A DNA stretch of 27,834 nt from a virus. The notes beneath the pieces were generated by a model. It was not told the DNA's origin. It worked only from the letters and a program-made list of their open reading frames with translations, and did not search any database. Positions 1,047 to 24,464 of this stretch are shown in pieces (position 1 is the first letter of the stretch; every line of letters begins with the position of its first letter). Both the position numbers and the translations under genes were made by a program. The stretch is taken from positions 1 to 27,834 of IMG/VR virus record IMGVR_UViG_3300048048_000041; one strand, 5' to 3'.

Positions 1047-1052
1047 TTACCT
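1027..1052. repeat. Perfect tandem 13-bp duplication spanning a stop codon
   Basis: GCGATGCTTACCT occurs twice in immediate succession (1027-1039 and 1040-1052). The right copy contains the stop codon (1047-1049) of the minus-strand gene that ends here; the left copy lies just downstream in the non-coding gap. A slippage duplication or a protein-binding site are both possible. Confidence 0.85.
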
Positions 1053-3617: not shown

Positions 3618-3688
3618 GAAAGGGCTCCTCTAAATAGTGCTGATTGGATATTGCGCGCAGGCTGCATGCCTGCAAAACCCCAGAGGGG

Positions 3689-5584
3689 TCAATAGGAATA
3701 GCTGTAGCTGGTCTGCGTGGAGGTGCTGGTACTGTCCTGCGAGTTGGCTGACCCACTGCCCGACACCCCCGCCGATACATGCATGGCCGACATTGCCCCG
3801 GCGGCGAGCTGGGCGCAGTAGGAACCCATGGCCTTGGCGGCTTCAAGGGTGACCTGGGCCTGCTGGATGGCTTTCTGGATGTTGGCCTGGTATTCGTGGA
3901 TCTGCATTTCGGCGTAGGAGATGTTGGTGCGCGTCTGCATGTCGGCATACCGGCTCTGGGCTTCGGCGGCGGAGATGTCGGCGGTGGCGGTGGCTTTCCA
4001 GGCTTCGACCTTGGCCTGGAAGACCTGCACGCCGTATTGCACCTGCTGGAGCGATGCCTGCATCTCGGCTTTGTAGGCATCGAGATCGGCGAGGTATTTC
4101 TGCACCCTGGTTTTGGCGGCATCCATGCGGAGCTGGGCGGCTTTGGCACGGATATCGGCCTTGCTGGAGAGGCCCTGGATGGTGGTGGCGTACACGCGGG
4201 CCTGGGCATCAAGCAGATTGGCCTTGGCGGTTTCGCCCTGCACCTGGGCGCTATAGGCATCGAACTTGAGCTTTTCGGCGCCGATTTCCTGTGCGTAGGC
4301 ATCCACTTCGGTGCGGTAGACCTGGAACTGCGTGGCGATGACATCGGCACGCACCTTGACGGCTTCCATCTGCGCACGGAAGAGGTCAACGCTGGTCTGC
4401 ACGGCGCCAAGGCGGGCTTTGTAGATATCGACTTTCTGGGCGTTGAGCTGGCCGATGGCAACCTGCGCATCGATAGCCGTCTTGTAGGCCTGGAGCTTGG
4501 CGTTGGCAGCGTCTACCTTTGTTTTATAGACCTGTACGAGGTTGGCGAAAGCCTGGCTCTGGGCATTGAACAGGGATACCTGGGCGTTGAAGACATTGAG
4601 CTGGCTTTCGGCCTGATACTTGGCGACTTCGAAGAGGCGGCCCACCATGTTGCTGTAGAGGTTGGTGGTGAGCTGCTCTAGCGCGAGGCCCTGCTGCACG
4701 GCGAAGCGGATCGCATCGATCTGCCACTGCGCGGCCTGGGTGAGGATGTCGCGGTTGGTTTCGGCAGCCTTGAGGCGGCCCTGCTCGCGCACCACGTTGA
4801 TCTGCTTGGCCAGCATGCCGGGGGGCATCGAGAAGCCACGCGAGGCAAAGGTATCGACAGCCTCCTGCACGGCACGGTTGGTTTCCGCCGAATCCCGCTC
4901 GCGGGCACGGGCGAAGAGCGCGTCTTCGACCGCACGCGGCATGCCGGTGGAACCGGCCATCATTTCGCGCACCTGGGCCTGCAGCGCATCGAGCATTTCG
5001 GATTGATACTGCGGCTCGGCCCAGTTGATGAAGGGTTCGGGCACGGTGAGCGCAGCCACTGGGGGCTGATCAGTGAAATCCGGAAACTCCGGGTAGACGA
5101 AATCCGGCAGCGTGATGGCGTTCAGCGTGTCCATCGTGGGCATGGTCAGATCGGGGGACGCCGGGTAGCTCAGTGCGGTGTCAACATCAGGCCGGCTTGG
5201 TGCGGTGTGCGTGCCCATGCTGGGGGCATCCGGCAGCGTGAGCGTGACGGTGGCCGGCGCATCGGGCAGCGCATCCATATCGGCGATGTCAAGATCACTG
5301 AGCAGGCTGTCAATATCGATTGCCGTGGGAACGGCGGGCATCGTCAGCGTGCTGTCGGCATAGGCGGGTGGATCACTCAGATCGAACACCGGCTCTGCTG
5401 TTGTGGCAGCTGGCAGATCTGCGGGGGCGGCAACGTCTGCCACCTGGATGGTGGCCAGCTCGTCGAGCGCAAGCTGCAATTTGCCGCTGTATTCGCTGAC
5501 GGTGGAATTGATGTTGGTGACGCGTTCGCTGACAAAATCGATGGCGGTATCCAGAATGCTGCCGTCGGCAATGGCACTGCTCAT
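3689..5584 (-). CDS. Large alpha-helical phage structural protein (probable internal/tail protein)
   Basis: A 631-aa protein. The ATG at 5584 is chosen because GGAGGG lies seven bases upstream; the TTG at 5590 would overlap that site. Residues ~40-170 are Pro/Asp/Ala-rich and acidic. Residues ~180-590 are an almost unbroken run of Ala/Gln/Lys/Glu-rich heptad-like sequence (VYKTKVDAANAKLQAYKTAI is typical), predicted to form long coiled-coil helices. The last 30 residues are Ser/Thr/Tyr-rich and end in SYSYSY. No enzymatic motif is seen. Long helical proteins at this operon position in podoviruses are usually internal core or ejection proteins that form a periplasm-spanning tube. That role is inferred; it could also be a tail-associated structural component. 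Confidence 0.6.
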   Translation of the reverse strand: MSSAIADGSILDTAIDFVSERVTNINSTVSEYSGKLQLALDELATIQVADVAAPADLPAATTAEPVFDLSDPPAYADSTLTMPAVPTAIDIDSLLSDLDIADMDALPDAPATVTLTLPDAPSMGTHTAPSRPDVDTALSYPASPDLTMPTMDTLNAITLPDFVYPEFPDFTDQPPVAALTVPEPFINWAEPQYQSEMLDALQAQVREMMAGSTGMPRAVEDALFARARERDSAETNRAVQEAVDTFASRGFSMPPGMLAKQINVVREQGRLKAAETNRDILTQAAQWQIDAIRFAVQQGLALEQLTTNLYSNMVGRLFEVAKYQAESQLNVFNAQVSLFNAQSQAFANLVQVYKTKVDAANAKLQAYKTAIDAQVAIGQLNAQKVDIYKARLGAVQTSVDLFRAQMEAVKVRADVIATQFQVYRTEVDAYAQEIGAEKLKFDAYSAQVQGETAKANLLDAQARVYATTIQGLSSKADIRAKAAQLRMDAAKTRVQKYLADLDAYKAEMQASLQQVQYGVQVFQAKVEAWKATATADISAAEAQSRYADMQTRTNISYAEMQIHEYQANIQKAIQQAQVTLEAAKAMGSYCAQLAAGAMSAMHVSAGVSGSGSANSQDSTSTSTQTSYSYSY

Positions 5585-10120: not shown

Positions 10121-10318
10121 ACCCTACAGGGGCAGCACCATCCCTCCACCCGAATTGTCCGGCAGGCTACCGGGCAGTTGCGTAAGGCTGCTGGATGGGC
10201 AACACTGCACAGCAGGCGACAGCATGCAACCCGAGCAGTGCCGGGCCAGGCGCCACACTTAGCTCGCGCAGGCTCAACCTACCGACAATCAAGCCCGGAA
10301 GACCAATTTCCACCAGCC

Positions 10319-11608
10319 ATGCTCGAACGATACCGAGTCAGCACCGAAAATCTGCTGAGAAAACTGCTTTCTGGCCATCTGGCACGCAGCACAATCAAAA
10401 CCACGGCAGTATTCGGCATGCGCCTCGCCGCCCAGGCCACCACGCTGATTTTCCTGGCACGCCTGCTTGGCCCGGCTCAATTCGGCGAATTTTCTTCCAT
10501 TGCCGCGTTAGCTGTATTGATGGGAACACTCTCCACACTCGGAACCCATCTGGTTCTGCTGGGTGAAACGGCCATCAAGCCGTCTAACCGAGATACGATC
10601 CTGCCCTTCGCAATTCCGACAACGCTTGTCTGCGGCACAACCCTGTTTGCCCTCTACAGCCTGTCTGTCATTCACTTTATCCAGCCAAACCTCGTGACAT
10701 GGACAGTTGTCAGCGCGATTGGCATCACAGAGCTGGTCGTTCAACCGCTGATCTATCTGGCCTGCGGAGAACTTCAGGGGTTGGATCAATCACCACTATC
10801 GCAGACGCTGCTCAATATTCCCCTATTCTTTCGGGCGGGCTTGCTAGGGCTGATGACCATCGGCCAGATGGGAAACGTCCTTCAGGCTTATGCCATCAGT
10901 TACCTGATAATTTCTACACTCACGATTGTCTTCATTCAACATTGCCTACCTGCGAAATGGCCTTCTCCGCAGAACTGGAGATTGCCTAAAACCCACGAAA
11001 TCCAGAAAGCGGTGGGTTACTCATTCTTATCACTCAGCAGCAGCGGTACATCGGAAGTCGACAAAACCCTATCTCCTGTCCTCATTGGCACCACCAATGC
11101 GGGGCTCTATATTATTGGTACACGCATACTCAGCGCCATGGCACTGCCGATAGGCGCACTGGCAATATCGGCCATGCCCCGCATTTTCCGAAGCCACGAA
11201 GCAAACACAGGCCTTGGCTCTCTGCAAAAACGGATGTTCATCGCCTCACTTCTCTACGGCACGGTAGTGGGCGTGGCCTTGTGGCTGTGCGCGTCCTTCT
11301 TCGTCAGGATACTGGGGCCTCATTACCAGAACCTGCCTGACACACTCTCCTGGATTGCATTTGCCTGCCCAGCACTCTGCTTTCGCTACATATCAGGAAC
11401 ACTTCTCGTAGGAATCAACCGGCCATGGCTACGCAGCGGCGGCGAATTCATGGGGATTGCCATCTTTATTCTGAGTGCGCCATTGCTCACCAGCATGTTG
11501 GGCTACCAGGGTTTCCTCCTCGCTCTGGTACTCAGCGAGTGGTGTATGGCAGTGGCAACCGGGCTGATATTGGCGAAATGTAAAAGCCAATCAACATCGA
11601 TTTCCTGA
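10319..11608 (+). CDS. Wzx/MATE-type polysaccharide flippase
   Basis: A 429-aa polytopic membrane protein from ATG 10319. An in-frame GTG-type extension to 10178 would add 47 polar residues unlike the family, so it was not used. No clear Shine-Dalgarno site precedes either start. About a dozen hydrophobic segments are visible. The N-terminal pattern (IKTTAVFGMRLAAQATTLIF, LARLLGPAQFGEFSSI) is typical of polysaccharide biosynthesis/O-antigen flippases that move undecaprenyl-linked oligosaccharides across the inner membrane. It is the first gene of the plus-strand cassette, 32 bases before a GT4 glycosyltransferase. The substrate is unknown. Confidence 0.85.
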   Translation: MLERYRVSTENLLRKLLSGHLARSTIKTTAVFGMRLAAQATTLIFLARLLGPAQFGEFSSIAALAVLMGTLSTLGTHLVLLGETAIKPSNRDTILPFAIPTTLVCGTTLFALYSLSVIHFIQPNLVTWTVVSAIGITELVVQPLIYLACGELQGLDQSPLSQTLLNIPLFFRAGLLGLMTIGQMGNVLQAYAISYLIISTLTIVFIQHCLPAKWPSPQNWRLPKTHEIQKAVGYSFLSLSSSGTSEVDKTLSPVLIGTTNAGLYIIGTRILSAMALPIGALAISAMPRIFRSHEANTGLGSLQKRMFIASLLYGTVVGVALWLCASFFVRILGPHYQNLPDTLSWIAFACPALCFRYISGTLLVGINRPWLRSGGEFMGIAIFILSAPLLTSMLGYQGFLLALVLSEWCMAVATGLILAKCKSQSTSIS

Positions 11609-11640
11609 AATAGCGTGTACGTTTCAACCCTCAGTAAAAA

Positions 11641-12723
11641 ATGCCGCCCATGTCAGATATTTTTGTATGGTTCCCGACAATCAAGACCGGTACCGGAACA
11701 GATACCTTTACCACGCGTCTTGCGGAAGGATTGGCAGCCCGTGGCATCCGCACGGAAATCAGCTGGCTGCCGCACCGCGCAGAATACCTGCCGGGCAGCG
11801 TTCCGATTCCACCCAAGCCTCCCGAAGCCAACATCATCCATATCAATACATGGCTCCCGGCGAGGTTCATTCGCCCCTTCAAAGAAACCCCTGTAGTCGC
11901 CACCATCCATCACGGCAACTACGCGCCCGCAGCATTCCAGAGCAAGTCCATGTTGCAGAAAATCTACAACCACCTCTGGATCCGCCCTATCGAACAAAAA
12001 AACGCCAAGCGTGCAGACACGCTGACAGCAGTCAGCCAGCACGCGGCAAACACTTTCCGAACACATGTGCTCGATACCGATATCTGCGTGATACACAATG
12101 GCATCGATACCAACGAATTCTGTCCGCAACCCACATACCCAACCCCGCCGGATCATCAATTCAGACTGCTCTACATTGGCGGCTGGAAACGGATGAAAGG
12201 CATTTCAACACTTTCCCGGGTTATGCAGGAACTGCGCAGCAACTTCACCCTGTACTACACCGGACCAGAGGGAAAAACTAATGCCCAGAACGGCATGCCT
12301 GAGAATTGCGTCAATCTTGGGCGCCTCACAACTCAGGCAGAAGTCATCAATGCATACCGATCCTGTGACGCCTTTATTTTCCCCTCGCTGAGTGAAGGTT
12401 TCGGCCTCGTAGTGGTAGAAGCCATGGCCTGTGGCAAACCAGTGGTTGTCAGCAATCTGCCCAGCCTGGAAGAAATCGCAAGGAACAACATTGACGGCAT
12501 AGTCTGCGACAAGGATTCCCCTCATGACTTTGCCGCTGCAATCATCCGCCTAGCCCAGTCAAAAGACCAGGCTCATGCGATGGGAAAGGAAGGCCAACTT
12601 CGCGCAGTCTCATTCTTTTCATACGAAAAAATGCTATCGAACTACATAAACACCTATTCAAAGCTATGCAAAAGTTATACAATTCAGAAAAATTTTTCAA
12701 AACCGAAAATCAATCTCGCCTAG
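11641..12723 (+). CDS. GT4-family glycosyltransferase (GT-B fold)
   Basis: A 360-aa protein; ATG 11650 is an equally possible start because neither has a clear Shine-Dalgarno site. The N-terminal domain is the acceptor side. The linker-proximal motifs TAVSQHAANTF (129-139) and IHNGIDTNEF (151-160) are family hallmarks. IGGWKRMKG (179-187) begins the nucleotide-sugar domain. The retaining GT4 EX7E motif is intact as EGFGLVVVE (252-260, Glu252 and Glu260), followed by AMACGKPVVV. It should transfer a hexose from a nucleotide donor to a lipid-linked or glycan acceptor at the cytoplasmic face. The C-terminus is Lys/Ser-rich. Family assignment is strong; sugar and linkage are unknown. Confidence 0.92.
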   Translation: MPPMSDIFVWFPTIKTGTGTDTFTTRLAEGLAARGIRTEISWLPHRAEYLPGSVPIPPKPPEANIIHINTWLPARFIRPFKETPVVATIHHGNYAPAAFQSKSMLQKIYNHLWIRPIEQKNAKRADTLTAVSQHAANTFRTHVLDTDICVIHNGIDTNEFCPQPTYPTPPDHQFRLLYIGGWKRMKGISTLSRVMQELRSNFTLYYTGPEGKTNAQNGMPENCVNLGRLTTQAEVINAYRSCDAFIFPSLSEGFGLVVVEAMACGKPVVVSNLPSLEEIARNNIDGIVCDKDSPHDFAAAIIRLAQSKDQAHAMGKEGQLRAVSFFSYEKMLSNYINTYSKLCKSYTIQKNFSKPKINLA

Positions 12724-12786
12724 TGAGAACAGAACTTCCGATCATTTAAATTAGTGGCTTGTGAAATATTTCATTACAACTCCATT

Positions 12787-12792
12787 TATAAT
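12787..12792 (+). promoter_or_regulatory. Candidate -10 box in an AT-rich leader before the epimerase gene
   Basis: The sequence is a perfect TATAAT within a very AT-rich stretch (12781-12840 has 13 G/C of 60). No matching -35 lies 16-18 bases upstream and no extended -10 TG is present. If used, transcription would start near 12800 and leave a leader of about 160 bases before the TTG start at 12961. The 237-base gap 12724-12960 holds no gene. Confidence 0.3.
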
Positions 12793-12960
12793 TTTCTTCA
12801 TAAAATATCTCAAGTAACTATCTAAAACAACTTTTCATCTCTGAGCGTGACTCACACACAGATACCTTGAAACTATTCGAGGGTGAGCATTGCCTGATGG
12901 TCGCTTGCCAATTGTATCAACATTTGAACACGCTAAATTCCTAAAAAGGAAGGACACGCT

Positions 12961-13995
12961 TTGATCTTGGTAACTGGTGGTAGTGGCTTTTACGGCGGTT
13001 TGCTCAAGGAACGTCTGCTAAAAGAAGGGCATCAGGTCATAAACGTCGACCTCTGCCCAGATGAATTCACGCATCCAAACCTGATCTCGTATAAAGGAGA
13101 TATACGGGATGCCGATTTCATTGAAAAAGAGGTCTTCGCTGCCCATCCAATTACGGCAGTCTTCCACTGCGCAGCCATCCTGGCTCACGATGTAAGCGAT
13201 GAAAGCTTTCTGTGGACATCTAACGTTAACGGAACGCGCGTGGTGGCTGAAGCCTCTGCGCGGCACAATGTAAAGCACCTGGTATTCACTTCCTCAAACT
13301 GTCTGTGGGGGCAAAACCTGGGGCGCGCCGTACGCGAGGACGACGAACCTTCACCCGTTGAGATCTATGGCCGATCCAAGCTCGAAGGGGAGAAAATCCT
13401 CCGAACATTCGAAGACCGATTGAACGTAGTTATCTTCCGCTGCCCGACCATTGTCGAAATGGGGCGCCTGGGTCTTCTTGCCATCCTGTTCGAATTCATC
13501 TCGGAAGGGCGTAAAACCTGGGTTGTCGGAGGGGGTGACAATCGCTACCAGTTTATCTACGCACAGGATCTTGCAACGGCCTGCATTCTGTCATTGAGTC
13601 TGGACCATTCAGATCTGTTCAATATCGGCTCCAATAACGTCAAGACGTTCAGGGAGGTGTACGAACACGTCATTTCCCATAGTGGCACAAAAGCAAGAGT
13701 TGCAAGCCTGCCACGCGGATTGACCCTTCTTGTTATGCAGATTGCTTACCGGCTAGGCTGGTCTCCACTCGGGCCATACCAGTACAAGATGATCGCCGAG
13801 AGTTTTGTTTTTGATACCTCACACCTCAGAAGTACATTGAATTGGTCGCCCACGCTGACCAACGAAGAAATGCTTCTGCGTGCCTACACGTACTATTTTG
13901 AGCACAAGGCAGAAATTGAATCTCGCACCGATGCCTCAGCCCATCGTCGCGGAGCGCGAATGGGGATAATCCGTCTCCTGAAATGGCTATCATGA
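12961..13995 (+). CDS. NAD-dependent sugar epimerase/dehydratase (extended SDR)
   Basis: A 344-aa protein starting with TTG at 12961, supported by a strong AAGGAAGGA Shine-Dalgarno stretch about eight bases upstream and by the protein beginning directly at the first beta strand. The Rossmann glycine motif TGGSGFYGG is at 5-13, an acidic residue (Asp30) ends the second strand and favours NAD, GDIRD is near 46-50, TSSN is at 110-113, and the catalytic YGRSK is at 136-140 (Tyr136, Lys140). Enzymes of this type remodel nucleotide sugars or 3-beta-hydroxysteroid-like substrates; in this cassette a nucleotide-sugar role is likely. The C-terminal ~25 residues are basic and hydrophobic. The stop overlaps the next start as ATGA. 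Confidence 0.88.
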   Translation: MILVTGGSGFYGGLLKERLLKEGHQVINVDLCPDEFTHPNLISYKGDIRDADFIEKEVFAAHPITAVFHCAAILAHDVSDESFLWTSNVNGTRVVAEASARHNVKHLVFTSSNCLWGQNLGRAVREDDEPSPVEIYGRSKLEGEKILRTFEDRLNVVIFRCPTIVEMGRLGLLAILFEFISEGRKTWVVGGGDNRYQFIYAQDLATACILSLSLDHSDLFNIGSNNVKTFREVYEHVISHSGTKARVASLPRGLTLLVMQIAYRLGWSPLGPYQYKMIAESFVFDTSHLRSTLNWSPTLTNEEMLLRAYTYYFEHKAEIESRTDASAHRRGARMGIIRLLKWLS

Positions 13996-14402
13996 ATTTC
14001 CTTCGTACCTACTTTAAAAGCATTCTCATGTACGGTGTCGTGGTAAGCGGAACAGCCGCACTAGCAGAATGGTCTTCATTCGCATGGTGCGTGTATAGCA
14101 TGGGAATGCAGTACGTACTGGCATCCATCCTGGCATTTATCGTGGGTACATCGGTCAACGCCATTTTGTCCAGATACCTCGCTTTCAACTCACGAGGGCG
14201 CACAGGTACTCAGGAAGTTATTTTTATCTATCTGACCAGCGCAGTGGCTTTTTTTCTCAATGTTGCCGCAATGATGTGTATTGTAGAACTGCTGCACCTG
14301 AACATCATGCTAGGAAAAATAGCCGGAACAATCATGGCCTTTTTTGCCAACTACCTGCTCCGTCAATTTTTTATTTTTAGTGCGGAGCCTCGCTGGAAGT
14401 AA
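13992..14402 (+). CDS. GtrA-family small membrane protein
   Basis: A 136-aa protein. ATG 13992 forms an ATGA overlap with the epimerase stop (13993-13995), indicating translational coupling; ATG 13983 in frame is the alternative. Four transmembrane segments are visible at roughly 11-32, 36-60, 74-97 and 105-128. The C-terminal NYLLRQFFIF matches the family's closing pattern. GtrA proteins are proposed to flip bactoprenol-linked sugar in phage O-antigen modification and act in other cell-wall glycan pathways. Classical sets are gtrA-gtrB-gtrC; here no GtrB-like GT2 enzyme follows. Confidence 0.85.
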   Translation: MNFLRTYFKSILMYGVVVSGTAALAEWSSFAWCVYSMGMQYVLASILAFIVGTSVNAILSRYLAFNSRGRTGTQEVIFIYLTSAVAFFLNVAAMMCIVELLHLNIMLGKIAGTIMAFFANYLLRQFFIFSAEPRWK

Positions 14403-14496
14403 ACTCAATTGATTTCACTGACCTGGGAATCGACGCAGCAACCCGGTATTCACGCCCATCGGTCATCCATTTTTGTTACGCCTGATCTTCAGAAGA

Positions 14497-14625
14497 ATGA
14501 GCGACTCCATGTTTAATCACAAATCCTCCACGACTAACCGCTCAGCTCCCGATACACTCAGTTCAACGCACAAGAGCAAAAATCGGAACGGCGACATTAT
14601 TTATGCTTTAATCATATTTAATTGA
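14497..14625 (+). CDS. Possible 42-aa small ORF in the gap before the 722-aa gene
   Basis: An ATG at 14497 preceded by AGAAGA opens a 42-codon frame, polar for 34 residues then ending in a short hydrophobic run (DIIYALIIFN). It lies in the 269-base gap 14403-14671, which otherwise shows only an AT-rich upstream region with an AATAAT hexamer at 14628-14633. No family is recognised. It may be chance. Confidence 0.2.
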   Translation: MSDSMFNHKSSTTNRSAPDTLSSTHKSKNRNGDIIYALIIFN

Positions 14626-14671
14626 TTAATAATTTTTAAACATTGAGCTTCAGAAAAATTTATTTCTAAAA

Positions 14672-16840
14672 ATGCCCAATCAAAACACCAAAGCCCACAA
14701 GGCGCTGCAGATGTGCTTTGTCCTGCTCCTTGCAGCTTGCTGGCTTGTGCAAGACACCTATACCGGTATTCACCAAGATTCCTTCCTTTATAACTTTTTG
14801 GCATTACTTCATCAGATACCAGAAAATTTTAGGCACGATCTTTTCATGGAGTTCGGTGGACAGGGAAACTATACCTTGTTCCCTACACTCTACCGTCATT
14901 TTGTGTCTGTTTTAGGGTTGCAAACGGCGGCTCTCGCCTTGACCATTGTGGCGAAGCTGGTGTACTTTGCCGGTCTGATCTGTCTGATCCGACGTCTGGT
15001 GGGGCCTTATTGGATAACGTGCCTGGCTGGCGTTATTCTAGTGTCACCGTATTATGATGGGTTTAAAGTTTTTCTTTATGCATACTCTAATCTGACGCCG
15101 CGTATTTTCGCAGAAGCCCTTTGTCTGTTTTCCTTGCGGATCCTTTGGGATCGGCACTATGGCGCCGCAGCACTACTCATTTGTTGTGCGGGCGCCCTGC
15201 ATCCCCTCATGACGACAGTGGGCGGACTGCTGCTATGTCTGACCCTTGTAACAGACACGGCTTTTAGCGTGCGTATCAGGCTATCCATTGCACTAGGCGG
15301 CATAGTGGCTGGCGCAGCACTGCTTCTCTCTGTAGTGGGGATTGATGCCATACGACCTCAGCTTGATGAACGCTGGGTCAATATCATGAGCCTTACTGGC
15401 AACGCCTATCAGTTACCCGACAAATGGAACTTTGATATGGGGTGCAAACCCCTGTATTTCATGCTGATACTAGGTCTAGCGCATTATCTTCGCCTGATCG
15501 ACGGCAAGAGAGTGATGTGGTGCCTTGTAGTCAGCGTTTTACTACTACTAGGGGTCTGGATTGTCGGCAGCGGGGTCCTGCGGAATGCATTCATTACGCA
15601 GTTGCAGCCATGGCGTGGATTATGGCTGCTCCAGATTGTCGGCATCATTCTGAATGTCCGGCTGCTGCTCGTTCTCTGGCAGGGAAGCGTGCCACAGCGC
15701 TGGGCGGCCACATTGCTCACCCTGGCTTTTTTCAATATTGGCTTTCTAGGACTGCACGTCACACCGTCGGCGGCACTGTTTCTCGCCATCAGCGCTTGCG
15801 TACTGTGGGCGCTGCTGTCGCGGGTGCCATCGCAATATTTTGAAACCCGCACAATGCGTTTGCTGCCATGGGTAGTCATTGCGCCGCAATGCGTAGCCTA
15901 TCTGCAATCCGTGGTGGAGCTTTGGATTCTTGTCGTACCAATCCTGTTTTATGCCCTGGTACGCTGCGCCAGTGCCCGTGGCGTGATCACTGCTGCGTGT
16001 GCGCTGCTGGCGGTCGGGATGGCGCCTCTCGTGGGCGAGACGATGATGCCACTCAGTTCCATGATCTGCTTCCTGATCTGGATGGCAGCCACCGATCACA
16101 AGCATCCACTGTGGGTGCGTTCCCCGGTTAAAGCCTTTCTGCTAGTGGCTTTAGGCGTGCTATGCGCACAGGGTGTGCCTGATTTTCTGGCTCTTTTCGA
16201 GAAAGAATTCGAAAAGACCATCTTACCAGCACTTGGTGACTCAATGCAGACCACAGAGCTGATGGTGCTCGCAGCCTGTGGTGTGGCTTTTTTCTGGATT
16301 CGCCATAAATGGCAGCCACCTTACGAAAAGGTGCTCCTCCCCTTGCTGGGGCTGGCCACCTTTACCGGCGCCTTTAACTTCTGGTTGCCAACCCAGGCAC
16401 AACTCTCTGCCTATAATCAGCCATGGGCTGATGCCTTGCAAAGCAGAATTCCCAAGGATGCGGTAGTACTCAGTGATCGTGGCGTGGATTGGAGCTGGTT
16501 TGTACTGCATCGCAGCTTTTACGAAAGCAACGTGCAACTTTTTGGGCCGGTTTTCTCGCGGAGAACCGCCACCGAAGGCTACCGGCGGCGCCTGTTCCTT
16601 TGCGGAATTGATGGCGATTTCTGTCTCCATGTCACTTCAGCGTTTGGCCAGGACGGTACCCACGTGCTGACAGACCCGGATATCGGCAGGATCTGCTCAG
16701 ATCGCGCACTGGATTTCCTGGTGCTGCGAGGCCGTTATCGGGACAGCATCGAGGTGGTAGCGGATTCGTCTGGCCAGCCCAATTCCCTGATTGCCTGCGC
16801 CCCACTACGCAGCACAGAGCGGCTATCGAAGACCCCCTGA
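14672..16840 (+). CDS. Large polytopic membrane protein, GT-C glycosyltransferase-like
   Basis: A 722-aa protein. ATG 14672 lacks a Shine-Dalgarno site; an in-frame ATG at 14711 (residue 14) is preceded by AAGG and is a possible start. The first membrane segment at ~12-27 is followed by an acidic periplasmic-type loop containing TYTGIHQDSF, reminiscent of the acidic loop of GT-C enzymes. About fifteen further hydrophobic segments extend to ~590. The final ~140 residues are soluble, with IPKDAVVLSDRGVDWSWFVL and a cluster FSRRTATEGYRRR. GT-C enzymes transfer sugars from polyprenyl-phosphate donors outside the inner membrane, which would suit a GtrC-type role next to GtrA. That role is inferred; the specific family was not identified. 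Confidence 0.6.
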   Translation: MPNQNTKAHKALQMCFVLLLAACWLVQDTYTGIHQDSFLYNFLALLHQIPENFRHDLFMEFGGQGNYTLFPTLYRHFVSVLGLQTAALALTIVAKLVYFAGLICLIRRLVGPYWITCLAGVILVSPYYDGFKVFLYAYSNLTPRIFAEALCLFSLRILWDRHYGAAALLICCAGALHPLMTTVGGLLLCLTLVTDTAFSVRIRLSIALGGIVAGAALLLSVVGIDAIRPQLDERWVNIMSLTGNAYQLPDKWNFDMGCKPLYFMLILGLAHYLRLIDGKRVMWCLVVSVLLLLGVWIVGSGVLRNAFITQLQPWRGLWLLQIVGIILNVRLLLVLWQGSVPQRWAATLLTLAFFNIGFLGLHVTPSAALFLAISACVLWALLSRVPSQYFETRTMRLLPWVVIAPQCVAYLQSVVELWILVVPILFYALVRCASARGVITAACALLAVGMAPLVGETMMPLSSMICFLIWMAATDHKHPLWVRSPVKAFLLVALGVLCAQGVPDFLALFEKEFEKTILPALGDSMQTTELMVLAACGVAFFWIRHKWQPPYEKVLLPLLGLATFTGAFNFWLPTQAQLSAYNQPWADALQSRIPKDAVVLSDRGVDWSWFVLHRSFYESNVQLFGPVFSRRTATEGYRRRLFLCGIDGDFCLHVTSAFGQDGTHVLTDPDIGRICSDRALDFLVLRGRYRDSIEVVADSSGQPNSLIACAPLRSTERLSKTP

Positions 16841-17336: not shown

Positions 17337-18524
17337 TCAGGCGCACACCACCCTATCCCCAAACACTACATTTTTCCCAGCAGCACCAGCGATGTCCGCA
17401 AGGCGCCGACCGCTCGTTTCCACCAGCGTCCCCACCGCCGTGCCCATCACAAAACCATTCTCCGCGAGCCACAGCGCCGTGGCCTGACCGCCCTGCGATG
17501 CATCAGTGCCAGCGATTTGCGCATCAACCAGAATGGCACTCCCAGGCACCGGAGGACGTGCCTTGCGTGGCTGCACTTCAAGCGCATCAGGCGAATTGCC
17601 CGCCAGAAAGATGACGTGATCGGCCTGCCCCACCCAGATTCCACCATCCACCGGAGCGACAAAGGTGATGCGCTGGGGCATCTGGATGAAGCCATGGCGC
17701 GCATCATGCAGGTGGTAAGCCAGCGCTTCCGAGAAGTTCAGGATGTTTCGTGTAGCCGTCAGGAGCCGCCCGCGCCAGTAGGCCAGATAGCGCCCTGTGG
17801 GCATCGGCTCCAGGTGGCGGAACTGTGCAGCGGCGCCAGAGGCAGACAACAGCGGCAGGCTGATTTGCGGGGTGGCGACAGGATAGTCTTCACCACGCGT
17901 GAATTCACCACCATTCTGGCTCGTAAAGTAAAGACGCACACGTTTGACCGTGGCATCCAAGCAAAGCGGGCAGGTTATGCCCAAGCCACCGGCTTCCTGC
18001 AGCGTCACGAAGGTGGCTTCTGAAACGGCCGATTCCGTCTCGCCACGTAGCCAGGAGAGCGCCACGCCGTAGGTGCCCGGTTCCAGGCTGCCTTCCTGCG
18101 TAACCTGCACCATCGGTGAGGGTGGCGTATCCAGCGTGAAGCGGTATGCGCTGCCACCATCAAAGGTAAAAAGTCCTTCGGGGCCGGCAACGATAACCTG
18201 ACCGTTGAGCGCGATGTGGCTGACAGGATCATCGCCAATCGTGGCGAGCGTCTGGGTGGTCCAGCTCTGCGTATCCACACGTACCCAATCCCTGCCCTGC
18301 GTGGCAAAGGTGTCGCCGAACAGTTCGCTGTGCCAGAGGTTATCCAGCCGCAGACTGCTCACGCGCCGCAGGCCTGGGCGCAGGCGCGCACGGCCATCGT
18401 CGGAGATGTCGAGATTGACGGCATCGCGCACGTAGAGGCGCGGGGCATCGCCACCGATCTGCAGGGCGGCGTCATCATCTTCGGTATCAATGCCCGCGAG
18501 CGGACCAATCTGGATGTCTGTCAT
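17337..18524 (-). CDS. Phage nozzle/tail-stabilisation-like beta-propeller protein
   Basis: A 395-aa protein whose ATG overlaps the upstream stop as ATGA (18521-18524). The N-terminus carries NLDISDDGRARLRPGLRRV at ~38-56, a pattern I associate with P22 gp10/T7 gp12-like tail proteins that sit below the adaptor. The rest is beta-rich with repeated blades, including RYLAYWRGRLLTATRNILNF near 245-265 and GIWVGQADHVIFLAG near 295. It should form the distal short-tail channel and plug packaged DNA. Assignment rests on pattern and context and could instead be another beta-propeller tail protein. It is the last late gene before the antisense cassette. Confidence 0.6.
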   Translation of the reverse strand: MTDIQIGPLAGIDTEDDDAALQIGGDAPRLYVRDAVNLDISDDGRARLRPGLRRVSSLRLDNLWHSELFGDTFATQGRDWVRVDTQSWTTQTLATIGDDPVSHIALNGQVIVAGPEGLFTFDGGSAYRFTLDTPPSPMVQVTQEGSLEPGTYGVALSWLRGETESAVSEATFVTLQEAGGLGITCPLCLDATVKRVRLYFTSQNGGEFTRGEDYPVATPQISLPLLSASGAAAQFRHLEPMPTGRYLAYWRGRLLTATRNILNFSEALAYHLHDARHGFIQMPQRITFVAPVDGGIWVGQADHVIFLAGNSPDALEVQPRKARPPVPGSAILVDAQIAGTDASQGGQATALWLAENGFVMGTAVGTLVETSGRRLADIAGAAGKNVVFGDRVVCA

Positions 18525-21340
18525 GATAGGGGTGCCCCTTTACGGTAAGTTTCGGCATTGCCATCCGGGCGGATGTATTGCGTCTTGAGTTTGATGTCTG
18601 GTGTGGCAACAGCCAAAGCAGTAAATCCGTTTGTGGCGGTGCGCTGTGAAGCGATCACCACGGCAGCCTGTTTCACCTTCATGCGACTGTCGAAGGCATC
18701 CAGGGTGTAGTCGCTGGTAAAGGCATCAAATCCTGTTGCCCGCACATCGCGAATCTTCAGCGAAACCCACGCCGTTCCAAAGCTCTGCGAATCCCAGCCC
18801 GTGGGAATCGTCGGCATGGGTGACCCGACATGCAGGGTCTGCCAGGTGTAACCGTCCGCAATCTCCCTGCCGCTTGCGCCCAGGCCCGCGTTATCTGTGC
18901 CAGCCGGATAGACGCGCCGGTTGAAATTCTCGATGTCCAGCGCCCCCATCCTGCCGAGGTCAATGCCCTGCCCCGCAATTGTCTGCGGCCCCGTATAGTG
19001 GATCGTTACCGTTGGCTTACCATACGTGGTGTCTGGCGTCTCCACATCATCGCCCAGCTGCTCCGCCGTCTGCGGGAATGGCCCTAGCGTCTGATACCCA
19101 TGACGCGAAGGCGCATAGCCCGCAGGCTTGATGTACTGCCGGCGCAGTGTCAGCGTTGGCGTGCCTGCCGCCGTCAGCGTCCCCAGCGAACTAGCTGTCA
19201 GGAAGCGGTGGCGATTCGTCACAACAGGCGAACCCAGCTTGATGCCCGGATTCCTCGAATCCCCGCCGACATCAATGTAGTTGCCGGCCTTGCCCCATTT
19301 CAACGCCTCTGCCGGTGCCCCGTTTGGCGCCCAGATCGTCCAGGGCGACATGCGCGGATAGTTGCTCGTATCAAACTCTTGCGACTGCCCGACAGAGCTC
19401 GCCGTCAGCGTGCGAATCCACAGCGAAACCGTCACCGTGCCACATGCGAACGAACCCACCCCCGAATCAATCCGGATGCCGTTGGCCTGCATATCCGGGC
19501 TGCCCGCCGCCAACGCCGAGAATCCCGCCGCGTACACCACCTGCTGATTCAGCGCCACCGTGCCATCGAACTTCAGCGTTTCCAGGCCGCGAGGGAACAC
19601 CTTCTGCGTGGCAGGCGGATCTTCCGTCGTCTTCTCCGCGCGCAGCTTCGTACCCATCAGCAGCTTATTCACGCCAGAGGGATAGATCCACTGGCGCCTG
19701 TCCTTGATCACCGTATTGCCGAAGGCCAGCGAGGAGATACCATCAAGCGCATAGCGCCGCCACTGCGTGCGCACCGCAGGCGTACCGAAGATTCTGGAAT
19801 CATGCCCATAGGCGTACAACTGTGGCGTCTTGTTCTTTACTGTTGGCGATCCGTAAGTCACCGACCTGATCCCATCCGGATAGAAGATCGTCCAGTGAAT
19901 CCGCAGAGACGGCGCCTCCCAGCCTAACCGGCTAAACCCGGTCGGCGCCACATAGTGCCGCCACAGCTTTACCTCCGGCCCCTTCAGTGTTGGCGGCGCG
20001 ATACTCTCCACCGTCGGAATCTTCACCGTGCGCACCCGGTACGCCACCATCGGCGAGCCCATCGCCAGCGCATTCAGATTGCTGTAAATCGTGAAGCTGC
20101 GCCGCGTGTTCACCACGCTCGCCGCCCTGCCATACCCCGCCGTCACAAAGCCCGCAGGCGCCAGCACCCGCGCCGCGTTGTAGATCGTGTGGTACTTTTC
20201 AAAGCGGATCGAATCAATCCCCTCCAGGCGATATGTCCGCACCCGGTGGCTCACCATCTTCAGCGTAAGCGCCGGCGCCGCCACCCCGGCAGGCTTCACA
20301 GTCCGGGCCTTGTTCTCAACCGCAGGGGAAGGCAAGGGATGCGGACTGGTGGCAAAGGTTGCAATCGTCCGGTTGCGGTTCTCCACCGTCACATACTTCG
20401 ACATCACAGGCGGATCCAACGAAGTCGAATCATCTGTCTGCGCATACTGCGTGATGAAGCGTGCCCAGTTCCAGACCTTCGACGCCCCCCAGCGATATTC
20501 CTCCCGCACATCCGGCAAAAACCCCGCAGGGCTCACCGTCTGCGTGCGCGTCCAGATCCGCGCTGAACCAAACACCCCGGCAATCCCGCGCGGATAGCAA
20601 TACTGCACCTCTGGAACAATGCGCGTGCCGAACCGCAAGCCATCCCAGCCGAACGGAATGGCCGTCTGCCCGTAGCCCATCAGCGGCGTGCCAAACGCCG
20701 AAGTCTTGAACCCCTCCCCCACCTCCACATAGCGTGGCGAATCCGATACCCACGGCCCCCCCGTCGCCAGCAGGCTCACGCCCGAGGGGTACAGATTGCG
20801 GATCTCCAGCGTGGCCGACGTGTCACCACCAACATACAGCCGATTGAACCCGCCCGGCTTCAGATAGCGGGTACGCAACTCGATAGTCAGCGCCCCCGAA
20901 GCCAGCGTGGAAAACCCCGCCAGCGGCTGATACTGCCGCATCAACACCAGCGTCGGCTTGCCATAGGCCGCCGTGTTGATCGCCCCACCGCCCACATCCT
21001 GCCGCCAGCGCCAGGGATGCGGCGAGCCAAACACTGCCGATGCATCTATGCCCGCGGGCCTGGCGCGAGTCAGCCAATTCCAGACAGCAGGGCTTCCGCC
21101 CGCCGCATCAAAAATTCCAGACGGTCTGGCAACCTGCTGTACCAAACGAATGGCCGCGGCAATCGACAGATCCGGCGCCGCAATGCCATGTGCCGAAACA
21201 TACTGATCAAGCGCGGAGTTTCCGTCGCCATTAACGTAGCCAGACTCGTTGTAGCCATACGCGACATAGACTTCCACGTCCACATCGAAATAGCCCATTT
21301 CAAGGTAATAATCCTCGAAATAGTTGGCGGCGTCAGTCAT
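18521..21340 (-). CDS. Repeat-built phage fibre-like protein
   Basis: A 939-aa protein. Residues ~65-930 are about thirty imperfect repeats of 22-25 residues with the pattern Pro-x-Gly-(Ile/Phe)-x5-(Phe/Tyr)-Gly-x-Pro-x-Val then an Arg-rich turn; for example YPDGIRSVTYGSPTVKN and ATGFDAFTSDYTLDAFDSRM are loosely equivalent units. The regular spacing suggests stacked beta-hairpins or a beta-solenoid fibre. The N-terminal 60 residues are acidic and Tyr-rich and may attach to the tail. No endosialidase or lyase motif is recognised. Gene position after the LamG pair and before the nozzle-like gene supports a receptor-reading or tail-decoration role. The Shine-Dalgarno site is weak and it may be coupled to the upstream LamG gene, 14 bases away. 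Confidence 0.6.
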   Translation of the reverse strand: MTDAANYFEDYYLEMGYFDVDVEVYVAYGYNESGYVNGDGNSALDQYVSAHGIAAPDLSIAAAIRLVQQVARPSGIFDAAGGSPAVWNWLTRARPAGIDASAVFGSPHPWRWRQDVGGGAINTAAYGKPTLVLMRQYQPLAGFSTLASGALTIELRTRYLKPGGFNRLYVGGDTSATLEIRNLYPSGVSLLATGGPWVSDSPRYVEVGEGFKTSAFGTPLMGYGQTAIPFGWDGLRFGTRIVPEVQYCYPRGIAGVFGSARIWTRTQTVSPAGFLPDVREEYRWGASKVWNWARFITQYAQTDDSTSLDPPVMSKYVTVENRNRTIATFATSPHPLPSPAVENKARTVKPAGVAAPALTLKMVSHRVRTYRLEGIDSIRFEKYHTIYNAARVLAPAGFVTAGYGRAASVVNTRRSFTIYSNLNALAMGSPMVAYRVRTVKIPTVESIAPPTLKGPEVKLWRHYVAPTGFSRLGWEAPSLRIHWTIFYPDGIRSVTYGSPTVKNKTPQLYAYGHDSRIFGTPAVRTQWRRYALDGISSLAFGNTVIKDRRQWIYPSGVNKLLMGTKLRAEKTTEDPPATQKVFPRGLETLKFDGTVALNQQVVYAAGFSALAAGSPDMQANGIRIDSGVGSFACGTVTVSLWIRTLTASSVGQSQEFDTSNYPRMSPWTIWAPNGAPAEALKWGKAGNYIDVGGDSRNPGIKLGSPVVTNRHRFLTASSLGTLTAAGTPTLTLRRQYIKPAGYAPSRHGYQTLGPFPQTAEQLGDDVETPDTTYGKPTVTIHYTGPQTIAGQGIDLGRMGALDIENFNRRVYPAGTDNAGLGASGREIADGYTWQTLHVGSPMPTIPTGWDSQSFGTAWVSLKIRDVRATGFDAFTSDYTLDAFDSRMKVKQAAVVIASQRTATNGFTALAVATPDIKLKTQYIRPDGNAETYRKGAPLS

Positions 21341-21354
21341 GGCGTGCCCGTCAT

Positions 21355-22149
21355 TTAGGCAAAAGCGCCGGCAGCCAAGCGGGCGTGCAGTGCTACGCGG
21401 TCAGCGGACAGGCAGGTGTTGTAGAACGCAATCTCATCAATGATGGCTGTCCCAACGCTATCAGAATATGGGTCTGTCAGCACGCCACCATAGGATCTTG
21501 CTACTGTCGATAATGTGGTGGCAGACGCTACCTTTGCTACTGGCGTGCCATTGATATATAGAACGGCTGTACTGCCGTTGTAGGTAGCTGCTACATGCAC
21601 CCAATCGTAAAGATTCAAATTAACAGGCGCCTGCACGTATGCCCCGGAAGCAGCGCTGGAGAAGAAACAAAGCGATGGCGCAAACCTACCATTGTCGCAG
21701 ATGCGGATGCCAAAGCGGTTTATGCCTGAACTCGATGCCGAGGAGAATTCAAACAATGGAAAGTAGGAGGTTGTCGAGAACAGCTTCGCCATGCCTTCCA
21801 TCGTGATATTGTTGCCCACAGGAAAGACCGACCACAGGGTAGCCGCAGGAGTGCCATATATACCGGCGCCATTATTTGACATACCTCTGTCGCTACTCGC
21901 CGAAAGCCCTCCGCGCATTGGCATCATGCTGCCACTTAAAGTCAGATAGTTCCCATTCCCGCTGGCATCTGGAATTTTCGTGGTTCCATATTCCTCATTG
22001 AATCGCCAATAGGCAACCGGATTGTCGGCCATCACTGCGGCGGCATAGCGATCAGACTCAAATGCCGTTTTGATGTTGGTCAGGTTTGTATCCATCTCGT
22101 CATGCGTGAGTGGAGTCCCCTTACCGGCCCGAGTAATTATGCTGACCAT
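21355..22149 (-). CDS. LamG/concanavalin-fold phage receptor-binding-type protein (copy 2)
   Basis: A 264-aa protein with a strong GAGAGGGG site before ATG 22149. The N-terminus has the phage fibre signature KGTPLTHDEMDTNLTNIK (10-27). Residues ~38-250 fit a LamG_3-like jelly roll: VAYWRFNEEYGTTKIPDASG at the start, WVHVAATYNGSTAVLYINGT near 185-205, and IIDEIAFYNTCLSADRVALH at the end. Such domains bind carbohydrate or protein and are used in phage adhesins. It is paralogous to the adjacent 261-aa protein: ends are conserved and the middle differs. It is slightly less GC-rich than its neighbours. Confidence 0.8.
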   Translation of the reverse strand: MVSIITRAGKGTPLTHDEMDTNLTNIKTAFESDRYAAAVMADNPVAYWRFNEEYGTTKIPDASGNGNYLTLSGSMMPMRGGLSASSDRGMSNNGAGIYGTPAATLWSVFPVGNNITMEGMAKLFSTTSYFPLFEFSSASSSGINRFGIRICDNGRFAPSLCFFSSAASGAYVQAPVNLNLYDWVHVAATYNGSTAVLYINGTPVAKVASATTLSTVARSYGGVLTDPYSDSVGTAIIDEIAFYNTCLSADRVALHARLAAGAFA

Positions 22150-22158
22150 AATCCCCTC

Positions 22159-22944
22159 TCAGACAGATGCGCCGGCAGCCAGCCGCGCATGCAGCGCAAT
22201 ACGGTCTGCAGTCAGTGCTGTACTGTAAAGCGCCAGATCACTGAAATGCCCCGTCGCTGACGGGTCCCCCCAGTTATCCTTTCCCATTCCACCAACAGAA
22301 CGCACGGCGGCAGTCATATAGCTGGCGGCAGCCACACTCACAGCCAGCGACCCATTCACGTAGATCATGAGATTGGCCCCATCGTACACAAGCGCCAGGT
22401 GATGCCATTCGTAGAGCGGCAGACTGAAGGGGACAACCGGCTCGACCATCGCAGCGCTGGCGCTCCACAGGCGAGCACGTGGCACATTACCGCGCCAAAT
22501 CAACATGAGCCCGCTGATGGCGCTGCTCTGTGCGATTCCAATGCCGAATATCTGGGAGAAATCGGCCCCGCTTGCGTCAAATCTCGCCAGCACCTCAATG
22601 GTGAATTTCCCTGTGTCTGCAAATCCGGCTGCGCTGGACGGCATACTGAACATCCCGGAACTGCCCATGTATCGCGCTAGCCTGCCAGCCCCCAAGGCCG
22701 GGTACTGCTGGGAGGTACTTGCTGAGGTAGCATCCCGCCCGTTGCCAGATGAGTCTGCAAGAGCCGTTGTGCCATACGCCTCATTGAGCCGCCAATACGC
22801 ATAAGGCACATCTGCCAGAACGGCAGCCGCGTAGTGATCTGCCACGGCAGTCTCCACCGCCGCTTTCAGGTTCGTGAAGTTCCCATCCAACTCCGCATGT
22901 GTCAGCGGAGAGCCCTTCGCGGTTCGCGTGACAATATCGACCAT
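22159..22944 (-). CDS. LamG/concanavalin-fold phage receptor-binding-type protein (copy 1)
   Basis: A 261-aa paralogue of the next gene. The N-terminus is KGSPLTHAELDGNFTNLK. The LamG body runs from YAYWRLNEAYGTTALADSSG through YEWHHLALVYDGANLMIYVN to the shared end LYSTALTADRIALHARLAAG. The start at 22944 has only a weak AGGA very close to the ATG, so coupling to the gene nine bases upstream (stop at 22951) is likely. Role inferred: virion surface adhesin or fibre tip, with two specificities offered by the pair. Confidence 0.8.
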   Translation of the reverse strand: MVDIVTRTAKGSPLTHAELDGNFTNLKAAVETAVADHYAAAVLADVPYAYWRLNEAYGTTALADSSGNGRDATSASTSQQYPALGAGRLARYMGSSGMFSMPSSAAGFADTGKFTIEVLARFDASGADFSQIFGIGIAQSSAISGLMLIWRGNVPRARLWSASAAMVEPVVPFSLPLYEWHHLALVYDGANLMIYVNGSLAVSVAAASYMTAAVRSVGGMGKDNWGDPSATGHFSDLALYSTALTADRIALHARLAAGASV

Positions 22945-22950
22945 ATCCTG

Positions 22951-23295
22951 CTACCCCTTGAGTTTCCCCAATGGCGTCTCACGCAGCCATTGCCCGCTTG
23001 CCGCGTGCCACTCGCAATACGCCTCAAAGAACGCCTGTTCGCCCATCTGCTGCACCTCGGCCACCATGCGCTCGCGTGCCCACTGATGCCAGTCAGCATC
23101 CTGAGGCCCGCGCTGGCGCTGCCAGATGAACAACTGGAAAGGCGGCAGCTTCGCCAGCGCCTCCCAGTCAATGGCGGGCCGCATCCAGTCTTCCGCTTTC
23201 TGCGACCACTCCTCCTCTTTAAGAGCACCCCCCATTGCGCCAAAGGCCCGAAAGCCCGGAACGCCCAGCCTCTGCGGTGCAGGTTTATCCGCCAT
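22951..23295 (-). CDS. Small phage protein, 114 aa, unknown
   Basis: A Trp/Glu/Gln-rich helical protein with no recognised domain. It has seven tryptophans or so, including DWHQWARERM and YCEWHAASGQWL. It begins six bases after the stop of the 135-aa gene and has no clear Shine-Dalgarno site, suggesting translational coupling. Position between a virion protein and the LamG pair makes an assembly or chaperone role for the adhesins possible, by analogy only. Confidence 0.65.
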   Translation of the reverse strand: MADKPAPQRLGVPGFRAFGAMGGALKEEEWSQKAEDWMRPAIDWEALAKLPPFQLFIWQRQRGPQDADWHQWARERMVAEVQQMGEQAFFEAYCEWHAASGQWLRETPLGKLKG

Positions 23296-23301
23296 GGCCG
23301 C

Positions 23302-23709
23302 TTACAGCCGGAAAATCTTGTTGGTCCCCGAATCCCAGGTGACGATGATGTCACCGCCATTCGGCGTGATCGGCAGGCCAGTGGCCGTATCAATGTAGGC
23401 AATCAGCGGGCTGGTCGATTCAGTACCCGTATCCTTGTAGATCAAAATCGCCTCGATGCTGGTGCCCGACACCGATGAAAACGTAATGTCAGCTGCATCG
23501 CATGCACCTGCCGATGCCGTCAGGCTCGACAGCGCCACCGGGCCAGCAATGCGTGCGGAGGTTGAAACGTCGGACAGATACAGGTGGGTTGATGTATTGA
23601 CCGTGTAGTTGCCCGAATCAATCAGATAGACCTTGAACGTGTCACTGGTCCAGTTGACCTTTGCCGTCGCGAACAGCTCGCGAGCGTTATCGTAGAGAGT
23701 ATTTGCCAT
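23302..23709 (-). CDS. Phage virion protein of common small beta-rich type, 135 aa
   Basis: The AAGGA site before ATG 23709 is good. The protein is beta-rich, with KVYLIDSGNYTVNTSTHLYL in the first half and IAYIDTATGLPITPNGGDII plus VTWDSGTNKIFRL at the end. I recognise this pattern as recurring in many tailed-phage genomes, without an assigned function. A decoration, head-fibre or tail role is plausible. It may share a fold with the 193-aa protein at 9465-10046. Confidence 0.7.
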   Translation of the reverse strand: MANTLYDNARELFATAKVNWTSDTFKVYLIDSGNYTVNTSTHLYLSDVSTSARIAGPVALSSLTASAGACDAADITFSSVSGTSIEAILIYKDTGTESTSPLIAYIDTATGLPITPNGGDIIVTWDSGTNKIFRL

Positions 23710-23795
23710 GATTTGATTCCTTTCCGCATAGGTGCGCTACAGCACATCTGCCAGTTGTTTTTCTCAATTCCGAAAATGTGGCTCGTCAGTACCGC

Positions 23796-24464
23796 TCATA
23801 CAAAATGTGGTTCGTTCTGTAGAGGGTTATCCACCCGCGTACTACGACGCATATCCGCATCGGGCGCCAGCCCGAAGTAAGCCGAGAAAGCCGCCTCCGC
23901 CTGCCCTGCCCGCTGCGCATCAAAGCTTTCGCTGTCCGGAACGCTGAAGGCCCGATGCAATGCCCAATTCACCAGATGCCGGTGATGCGCCGCATTGATT
24001 TCCGGCACATCTGTGCTGGCAGAGAGACTAGCGATTGGTAGACGGTAGCCTTCCAGATACAGCGTGCCAGCCACATCCGGCTCGGGTGCCAGACGGATGC
24101 TGTTGTCTGTCTGCATAAGCCAGCGAGGCACACCGGTTTCCTCTCGCCAACACGGGAAGTGGCAATCCAGCCATTCCACGCTGACGCTCTTCAACGGCAC
24201 CCGCTTCACCCCCTCCTTGGGAAGAAAGGCCTGATACGTAATCTCGAACAGGCAGGCACTCAGCGCATACACGCTGACACCAGCATTCACCGCGATTTCA
24301 CACACATCCCTGGCAGCGGATTCATGGATCAGCCGCGCACGGATGGCCGCCTCAGTCTGGGCTTCGTTAAGCCAGCCCGTTACCATTGCATCAGGCCAGA
24401 AATACGGCTCGGCACGATCCTGCGCATCGACGCGAAACTGGGCGATAAGCTGTTCGAGCGTCAT
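23796..24464 (-). CDS. Phage head-tail adaptor-like protein
   Basis: A 222-aa protein. ATG overlaps the preceding stop as ATGA. The N-terminal helical segment (LIAQFRVDAQDRAEPYFWPD, then VTGWLNEAQTEAAIRARLIH) is typical of podoviral adaptor proteins (gp11-like, DUF6682-type by recollection) that dock onto the portal. Later parts contain VSVEWLDCHFPCW and the beta segment TLYLEGYRLPI. The order capsid - small head proteins - adaptor - nozzle supports this assignment. Confidence 0.75.
   Translation of the reverse strand: MTLEQLIAQFRVDAQDRAEPYFWPDAMVTGWLNEAQTEAAIRARLIHESAARDVCEIAVNAGVSVYALSACLFEITYQAFLPKEGVKRVPLKSVSVEWLDCHFPCWREETGVPRWLMQTDNSIRLAPEPDVAGTLYLEGYRLPIASLSASTDVPEINAAHHRHLVNWALHRAFSVPDSESFDAQRAGQAEAAFSAYFGLAPDADMRRSTRVDNPLQNEPHFV

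Follow-up and report, generated by a model that had tools for sequence, protein, structure and literature searches.

Why does a phage carry two adjacent genes whose products agree at both ends and differ in the middle? The question is raised by positions 21355 to 22944 of the window, by which we mean the whole 27,834-nt IMG/VR record IMGVR_UViG_3300048048_000041. This segment is filled exactly by two complete minus-strand open reading frames, gene B (261 aa), which is the upstream member in the direction of transcription, and then gene A (264 aa). Both products match Laminin_G_3 (PF13385) above the Pfam gathering cutoff of 27.6 bits (A, 57.1 bits; B, 67.7 bits), and BLASTP aligned A with B at 104 of 268 identities (39%; E 7e-55), far beyond chance. 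The answer that we regard as probable is that they are two tail adhesins of an F116-type Rhodocyclaceae phage, with slot-specific docking ends and jelly-roll LamG cores, the core of A being exchanged by recombination. The features of the pair are as follows.

22159-22944, minus strand: gene B, LamG adhesin-like, first of the pair, 261 aa (open reading frame, Pfam)
22849-22944, minus strand: B-type N-terminal module, aa 1 to 32, proposed docking segment
22195-22629, minus strand: Laminin_G_3 match of B, aa 106 to 250 (Pfam)
21355-22149, minus strand: gene A, LamG adhesin-like, second of the pair, 264 aa (open reading frame, Pfam)
22025-22149, minus strand: A-type N-terminal module, about aa 1 to 42, proposed docking segment and left recombination arm
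21423-22024, minus strand: exchanged core of gene A, its borders being the best two-breakpoint fit, given without a confidence interval
21391-21828, minus strand: Laminin_G_3 match of A, aa 108 to 253 (Pfam)
21355-21422, minus strand: conserved C-terminal end of A, with the final helix and tail, proposed right recombination arm

The original prediction had described shared starts and endings around a differing LamG core, and this pattern is present in the window: A begins with KGTPLTHDEMDTNLTN and B with KGSPLTHAELDGNFTN, A ends with SADRVALHARLAAGA and B with TADRIALHARLAAGA, and the two proteins agree at 0.59 over aa 1 to 32, 0.32 over aa 33 to 240 and 0.71 over aa 241 to 264 of A. Among named phages, the pair has no relative at E 1e-5, A being without any match and B having one 27% match, in Burkholderia phage FLC9, and a literature search by title and start of abstract, mostly outside subscription papers, returned no description of it.

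The start motif extends well beyond this pair. When viral contigs were scanned with B, 60 loci were found, of which L002, a 7.6-kb viral locus, matches residues 1 to 260, while the other 59 match only within residues 1 to 57. A relaxed motif search of 142 sequences, with the window and the overlapping L001 counted, gave 70 hits in 63 sequences, none of them more than 30 residues into its open frame, the frames being of very different lengths. Carriers of the motif range from 108 to 1240 aa and diverge past the start, as these lengths and the 59 partial matches show, and when 33 carriers were compared with Pfam, four families were matched by one member each, Laminin_G_3 among them. Residues 1 to 39 of B have matches in 16 named-phage records, the best being EBPR siphovirus 1 (E 2e-6), phage Simon (E 2e-5), where the motif opens a 407-aa open reading frame, and a Synechococcus phage (E 6e-3); 11 Achromobacter records match weakly (E 0.04 to 0.7), 6 of which are annotated as tail fibre, tail collar or collar. 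The N-terminus is therefore common to other tail proteins, as in modular RBPs, the annotated tail matches being weak (E 0.04 to 0.7), and we read the motif as a probable tail-protein module. As a general phage module, it leaves no trace of this particular duplication, and its use as a marker of that event is ruled out. Another two-gene tandem with the same start motif occurs in L019 (positions 2818 to 4758) and L020.

The neighborhood of the pair is given by the following features.

23302-23709, minus strand: phrog_644 homologue, anchor gene
22951-23295, minus strand: phrog_11163 homologue, upstream border of the slot
18521-21340, minus strand: 939-aa phrog_11272 homologue, downstream border of the slot
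21224-21340, minus strand: first 39 aa of the 939-aa protein, holding FEDYYLEMGYFDV, common to a different tail protein of Mu-like phage L062 and apparently traveling with the pair
17337-18524, minus strand: 395-aa homologue of head closure Hc3 (phrog_8040)

Anchoring on the phrog_644 gene confirmed 163 viral loci; the best 80 of the 163, among them L002, were used together with the window, making 81. A homologue of the 939-aa gene is present in 68 of the 81 (the window, L002 and 66 others), and the slot between the borders spans 659 to 3343 bases with one to four same-strand open reading frames of 60 aa or more; where no phrog_11163 homologue was found (6 of the 68 loci), the anchor served as the border. 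The 110 slot frames (93 distinct), a few of which look spurious, fall into 35 clusters at the thresholds used, and the cluster holding A and B contains only the four frames from the window and L002. Matches of 47 representatives (43 slot frames and 4 from L062) at E up to 0.01 included 8 to Laminin_G_3, 8 to CarboxypepD_reg and 6 to F5/8 type C, and other representatives matched beta-propellers. Among 202 locus pairs whose adaptors are 80% or more identical, a slot frame lacks a counterpart in 36 (identity times coverage below 0.5, in one direction), these 36 being nonindependent, with L089 in 14 of the 25 pairs listed, and some of the frames being doubtful; L113 and L119 form another such pair, with identities of 0.98 in the adaptor and 0.99 in the phrog_644 protein.

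The pair thus occupies a slot that is variable among F116-type phages. Matches to the 939-aa protein occur in 39 named-phage records, 37 of them from Pseudomonas phages including F116, at 26 to 34%. Hollowayvirus F116 and the F116-like phage phiC725A share with the window the virion gene order around the slot as well as homologues of the 939-, 907-, 395-, 200-, 633- and 133-aa proteins and of the adaptor (33 to 59% identity over the matched parts), whereas in F116 the 939-aa homologue is preceded by F116p50, a 285-aa gene, and the LamG pair has no match in that phage. By these likenesses the window element is a relative of F116-type phages, and we do not place it in the genus Hollowayvirus.

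The same two-gene arrangement recurs in L062, which carries the genes for the Mu portal, F, protease and gpT head protein and is a Mu-like phage; L062 and L002 have the same metagenome number in their contig names. In L062 a B-type LamG gene is followed by an A-type gene, in the same order as in the window, and the next gene matches the start of the 939-aa protein over its first 39 residues (74%) and the tail protein family phrog_6079 over residues 98 to 660. The start of the 939-aa protein (47 aa) had no match in named phages. The contig of L062 (L143) and the window share DNA matches of 82 to 211 bases, 67 to 83% identical, at the gene ends, one of which runs from the end of B into the start of A. 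Across four genomes, A-type starts agree at 0.75 to 0.97 and B-type starts at 0.83 to 1.00, while A and B starts agree at 0.51 to 0.72, so that the N-terminal ends are slot specific. The best reading of a pair that is common to unrelated phages together with about 39 codons of the next gene is that these moved as a unit.

Phylogeny of the cores bears on the kinship of the two genes. In a tree of 32 LamG cores, the eight from the four genomes group as one clade (SH 0.995), with the outgroups chosen by similarity to the query, and A and B are paralogues; independent acquisition, the phylogeny that the original prediction had set against duplication, is judged unlikely on this clade. Of the duplication it proposed, the paralogy holds, while neither the start motif as a trace of the event nor a recent origin of the pair does: the pair does not appear recent, since both N-terminal types occur in the same order in the unrelated Mu-like phage. 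The A and B cores of L062 group together (SH 0.981); core exchange between the two genes, or in L062, is no more than a suggestion, because AU tests keep a grouping in which cores follow their slots (p 0.184, with too few replicates according to the program's warning, and 0.104 in a second test).

The place of the pair in the particle can be read in another way, namely, that the LamG proteins are decorations of the head or neck, or attach to extracellular matrix, without setting the receptor. The pair does lie between head-tail joining genes, the SU10-type adaptor (phrog_399) and head closure Hc3 (phrog_8040), and phrog_8510, one of the PHROGs matched, carries the label head and packaging. We nevertheless consider this reading unlikely, since the slot is variable in F116-type phages and the L062 pair precedes a phrog_6079 tail protein.

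The reading as tail adhesins of a phage must also be weighed against the state of the element itself. On the minus strand, the window runs from a start codon at 27834 to a stop codon at 1, as expected of a trimmed provirus. Whereas the terminase and portal genes of F116 adjoin its head genes, both are absent from the window, which looks trimmed, and lie on another contig in UBA1310, a Rhodocyclaceae MAG with a 16.7-kb prophage locus (L166) related to the window. On UBA1310 contigs C21 and C60 (loci L166, L282 and L288), the virion block is on C21, between host genes, and portal and large-terminase matches to F116 occur only on C60, beside a small-terminase gene; none of the window virion proteins matched C60, and no viral-contig relatives of the C60 portal or of the phrog_479 gene were confirmed. 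Eight other loci, from seven genomes of the family, each have their portal and capsid genes together in one stretch of 9 to 20 kb. A gene with a PRTase-CE domain (L288, 10344 to 13577, minus strand) stands beside the C60 terminase and portal. The split may reflect a rearranged prophage, an assembly fault or a domesticated particle.

If the carrier were a domesticated or defective remnant, the adhesins would serve a particle other than an infectious phage. This would suit the separation of the UBA1310 virion block from the sole F116-type terminase and portal matches, the coincidence of the window ends with gene boundaries, and the 19 genes compared between the window and UBA1310, all of which are open in both, with dN/dS of 0.004 to 0.39, the highest value belonging to a poorly aligned 477-aa gene whose counterpart has 398 aa. 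However, the case draws on one MAG with its assembly joins taken as given, and a match to the 939-aa gene was found in 1 of 395 family genomes and the capsid gene in 1 of 8 genus genomes, both being UBA1310, so that we hold a remnant to be rather improbable. A more far-reaching version, in which the pair would serve as a two-slot cassette of adhesins on a GTA-like particle, F116-derived, domesticated, split over the chromosome and under purifying selection in Rhodocyclaceae, seems to us very doubtful; if it were true, exchanging one adhesin core would alter which relatives receive DNA.

Evidence for replacement of a core comes from close relatives of the window. Against L002, blastn gave three aligned pieces with 88 to 91% DNA identity and left 21439 to 22016, inside A, unaligned, as well as 23710 to 23823; in 100-column windows, 9 of 76 fall below 65% identity, six in the A core and three at 23659 to 23835. 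In the same type of comparison with L166, which is 89% identical to the window over 10.5 kb with an A core at 0.89 aa identity, 1 of 74 windows falls below 65%, and it is located elsewhere. By codon windows, A agrees with L002 at 0.87 to 0.90 at the start, 0.23 to 0.59 in the middle, and 0.90 and 0.81 at the end, with third codon positions in the core 0.20 to 0.44 identical, while B agrees at 0.75 to 1.00 throughout, a single last codon excepted. A two-breakpoint fit placed the borders at 22024 and 21423 (2dlnL 150), with 349 of 613 columns differing inside and 19 of 194 outside. The core of gene A was thus replaced in L002, the one recipient, between conserved ends; the original prediction had proposed a test for recombination at these ends, and an exchange bounded by them is borne out for this gene in this one relative. 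It is an exchange of a domain between close relatives, as is found in modular RBPs. Gene B (90% aa identity in L002, 92% in L166) has undergone no exchange in either. The second patch of low identity against L002, at 23659 to 23835, comprises the end of the adaptor gene and a spacer.

Most simply, the shared A core would be the older one and the replacement would be carried by L002, because dS between the window and L166 is similar in the A core (0.38), B (0.46) and the 939-aa gene (0.41); between the window and L002, it is 0.28 for B and 0.25 for the 939-aa gene. We infer accordingly that the transfer was into L002. A search for the donor of the L002 core returned no match in phage records and only L002 itself in viral contigs. 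The phrog_644 and phrog_11163 genes of the window are closer to L166 and its 939- and 395-aa genes closer to L002; closeness varies along the block, and the backbone itself is therefore mosaic.

A simple tandem duplication whose copies diverged slowly, structure constraining the ends and no exchange taking place, accords with the clear paralogy of A and B, with conserved ends that coincide with helices of the modeled fold, and with the AU tests, which keep slot-following cores; it is nonetheless improbable in our judgment, since the A core is near saturation between the window and L002 while B and the 939-aa gene stay at about 90%, and the borders are sharp. Directed hypermutation by a diversity-generating retroelement would account for a change limited to one presumed binding domain, but we give it almost no credence, as the change covers about 600 bp with indels and none of the 23 window proteins scanned (Pfam or PHROGs) matches a reverse transcriptase.

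Structural models place the exchanged segment within the fold. The AlphaFold2 model of A (pLDDT 85.9), in which confidence is low at the very start (ten-residue blocks of 44, 72, 68 and 85), has residues 1 to 15 without regular structure, helices at 16 to 32 and 34 to 41, a jelly-roll and a final helix at 249 to 259; the model of B (pLDDT 75.6) has the same layout, jelly-roll included. The fitted breakpoints fall at about residue 42, just past the second helix, and residue 242, where the last strand ends. A Foldseek search with A returned concanavalin A-like domains among both solved structures and viral ones, and of the 50 BFVD matches listed, many are named LamG or ConA-like phage proteins; a profile search found solved relatives, the best being an arabinanase domain (5hon; E 2e-15). 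A and B resemble Laminin_G_3 and concanavalin A-like domains in their Pfam matches above cutoff and, for A, in the fold relatives, but identities are 10 to 22% among the fold-search matches listed.

Returning to the reading as exchangeable tail adhesins, these observations can be assembled as follows: (i) B and A would be tail-associated adhesins, and hence virion proteins, of an F116-type phage of Rhodocyclaceae, a host suggested by one MAG; (ii) the short N-terminus, an extended stretch followed by two helices, may dock each adhesin at its own place on the tail, the A-type and B-type termini being kept between phages; (iii) the jelly-roll LamG/ConA-like core, followed by a conserved final helix, would contact the cell surface and presumably bind a receptor, so that the two cores could provide two receptor specificities, as originally proposed; (iv) homologous recombination at the conserved ends is the presumed mechanism by which the A core is swapped, which would renew binding while leaving assembly undisturbed; and (v) the pair would have moved between unrelated phages as a unit that takes in roughly the first 39 codons of the next gene.

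The pair adds a new case to the known modularity by which phages renew host-touching proteins. It resembles the modular RBPs with a conserved N-terminal anchor in the excerpted text of Smug et al. 2023 (PMC10684548), where the start is kept and the binding part is exchanged between close phages, and the replication-initiator case of that paper (Fig. 5E in the same excerpts) is likewise read as a swap into a distant variant of the same domain. In the neck-passage and tail-fibre examples of those excerpts, the C-terminal part is exchanged, whereas in the present pair the replacement affects the middle of the gene, leaves the two ends intact and concerns one of two tandem, slot-typed copies. With two docking types, one exchanged core, and fitted borders that directly follow the N-terminal helices and coincide with the end of the final strand, the locus would offer a compact natural system in which the docking and binding parts of a phage adhesin are separable by sequence, and as close phages differ in one core, a change of receptor could be tied to one segment.

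A link between the adhesin target and a surface-glycan cassette had also been put forward. Such a cassette lies on the opposite strand at 10178 to 16840 (plus strand), with a group 1 glycosyltransferase, an epimerase, GtrA, a 722-aa protein without a Pfam match and a weak Polysacc_synt match below the cutoff. Comparison with pieces of UBA1310 gave only the 722-aa gene (78%) and a partial match to the first gene (53%), with 1.35 kb between the pieces outside the comparison. The A core and the 722-aa cassette gene are both common to the window and L166, while the L002 record stops before the place of the cassette, and the link stays conjectural, with co-occurrence in its favor. According to an extract of PMC5217972, the F116-like phage phiC725A depends on type IV pili and was able to grow on both LPS mutants tested, wzy and algC, so that, as far as this extract goes, slot proteins need not bind glycans.

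In the host family, 47 of 395 genomes match the profile of the pair, most of those outside UBA1310 weakly and in longer frames, and the pair itself was found only in UBA1310, with up to six candidates scored per genome. Elsewhere in the window, neighboring genes of 363 and 477 aa (1047 to 3617, minus strand) both match phrog_11341, the latter being only 42% identical to its best UBA1310 counterpart and hence a second fast-changing gene, and an ankyrin-repeat gene at the end of the block (1 to 480, minus strand) is 96% identical in UBA1310.
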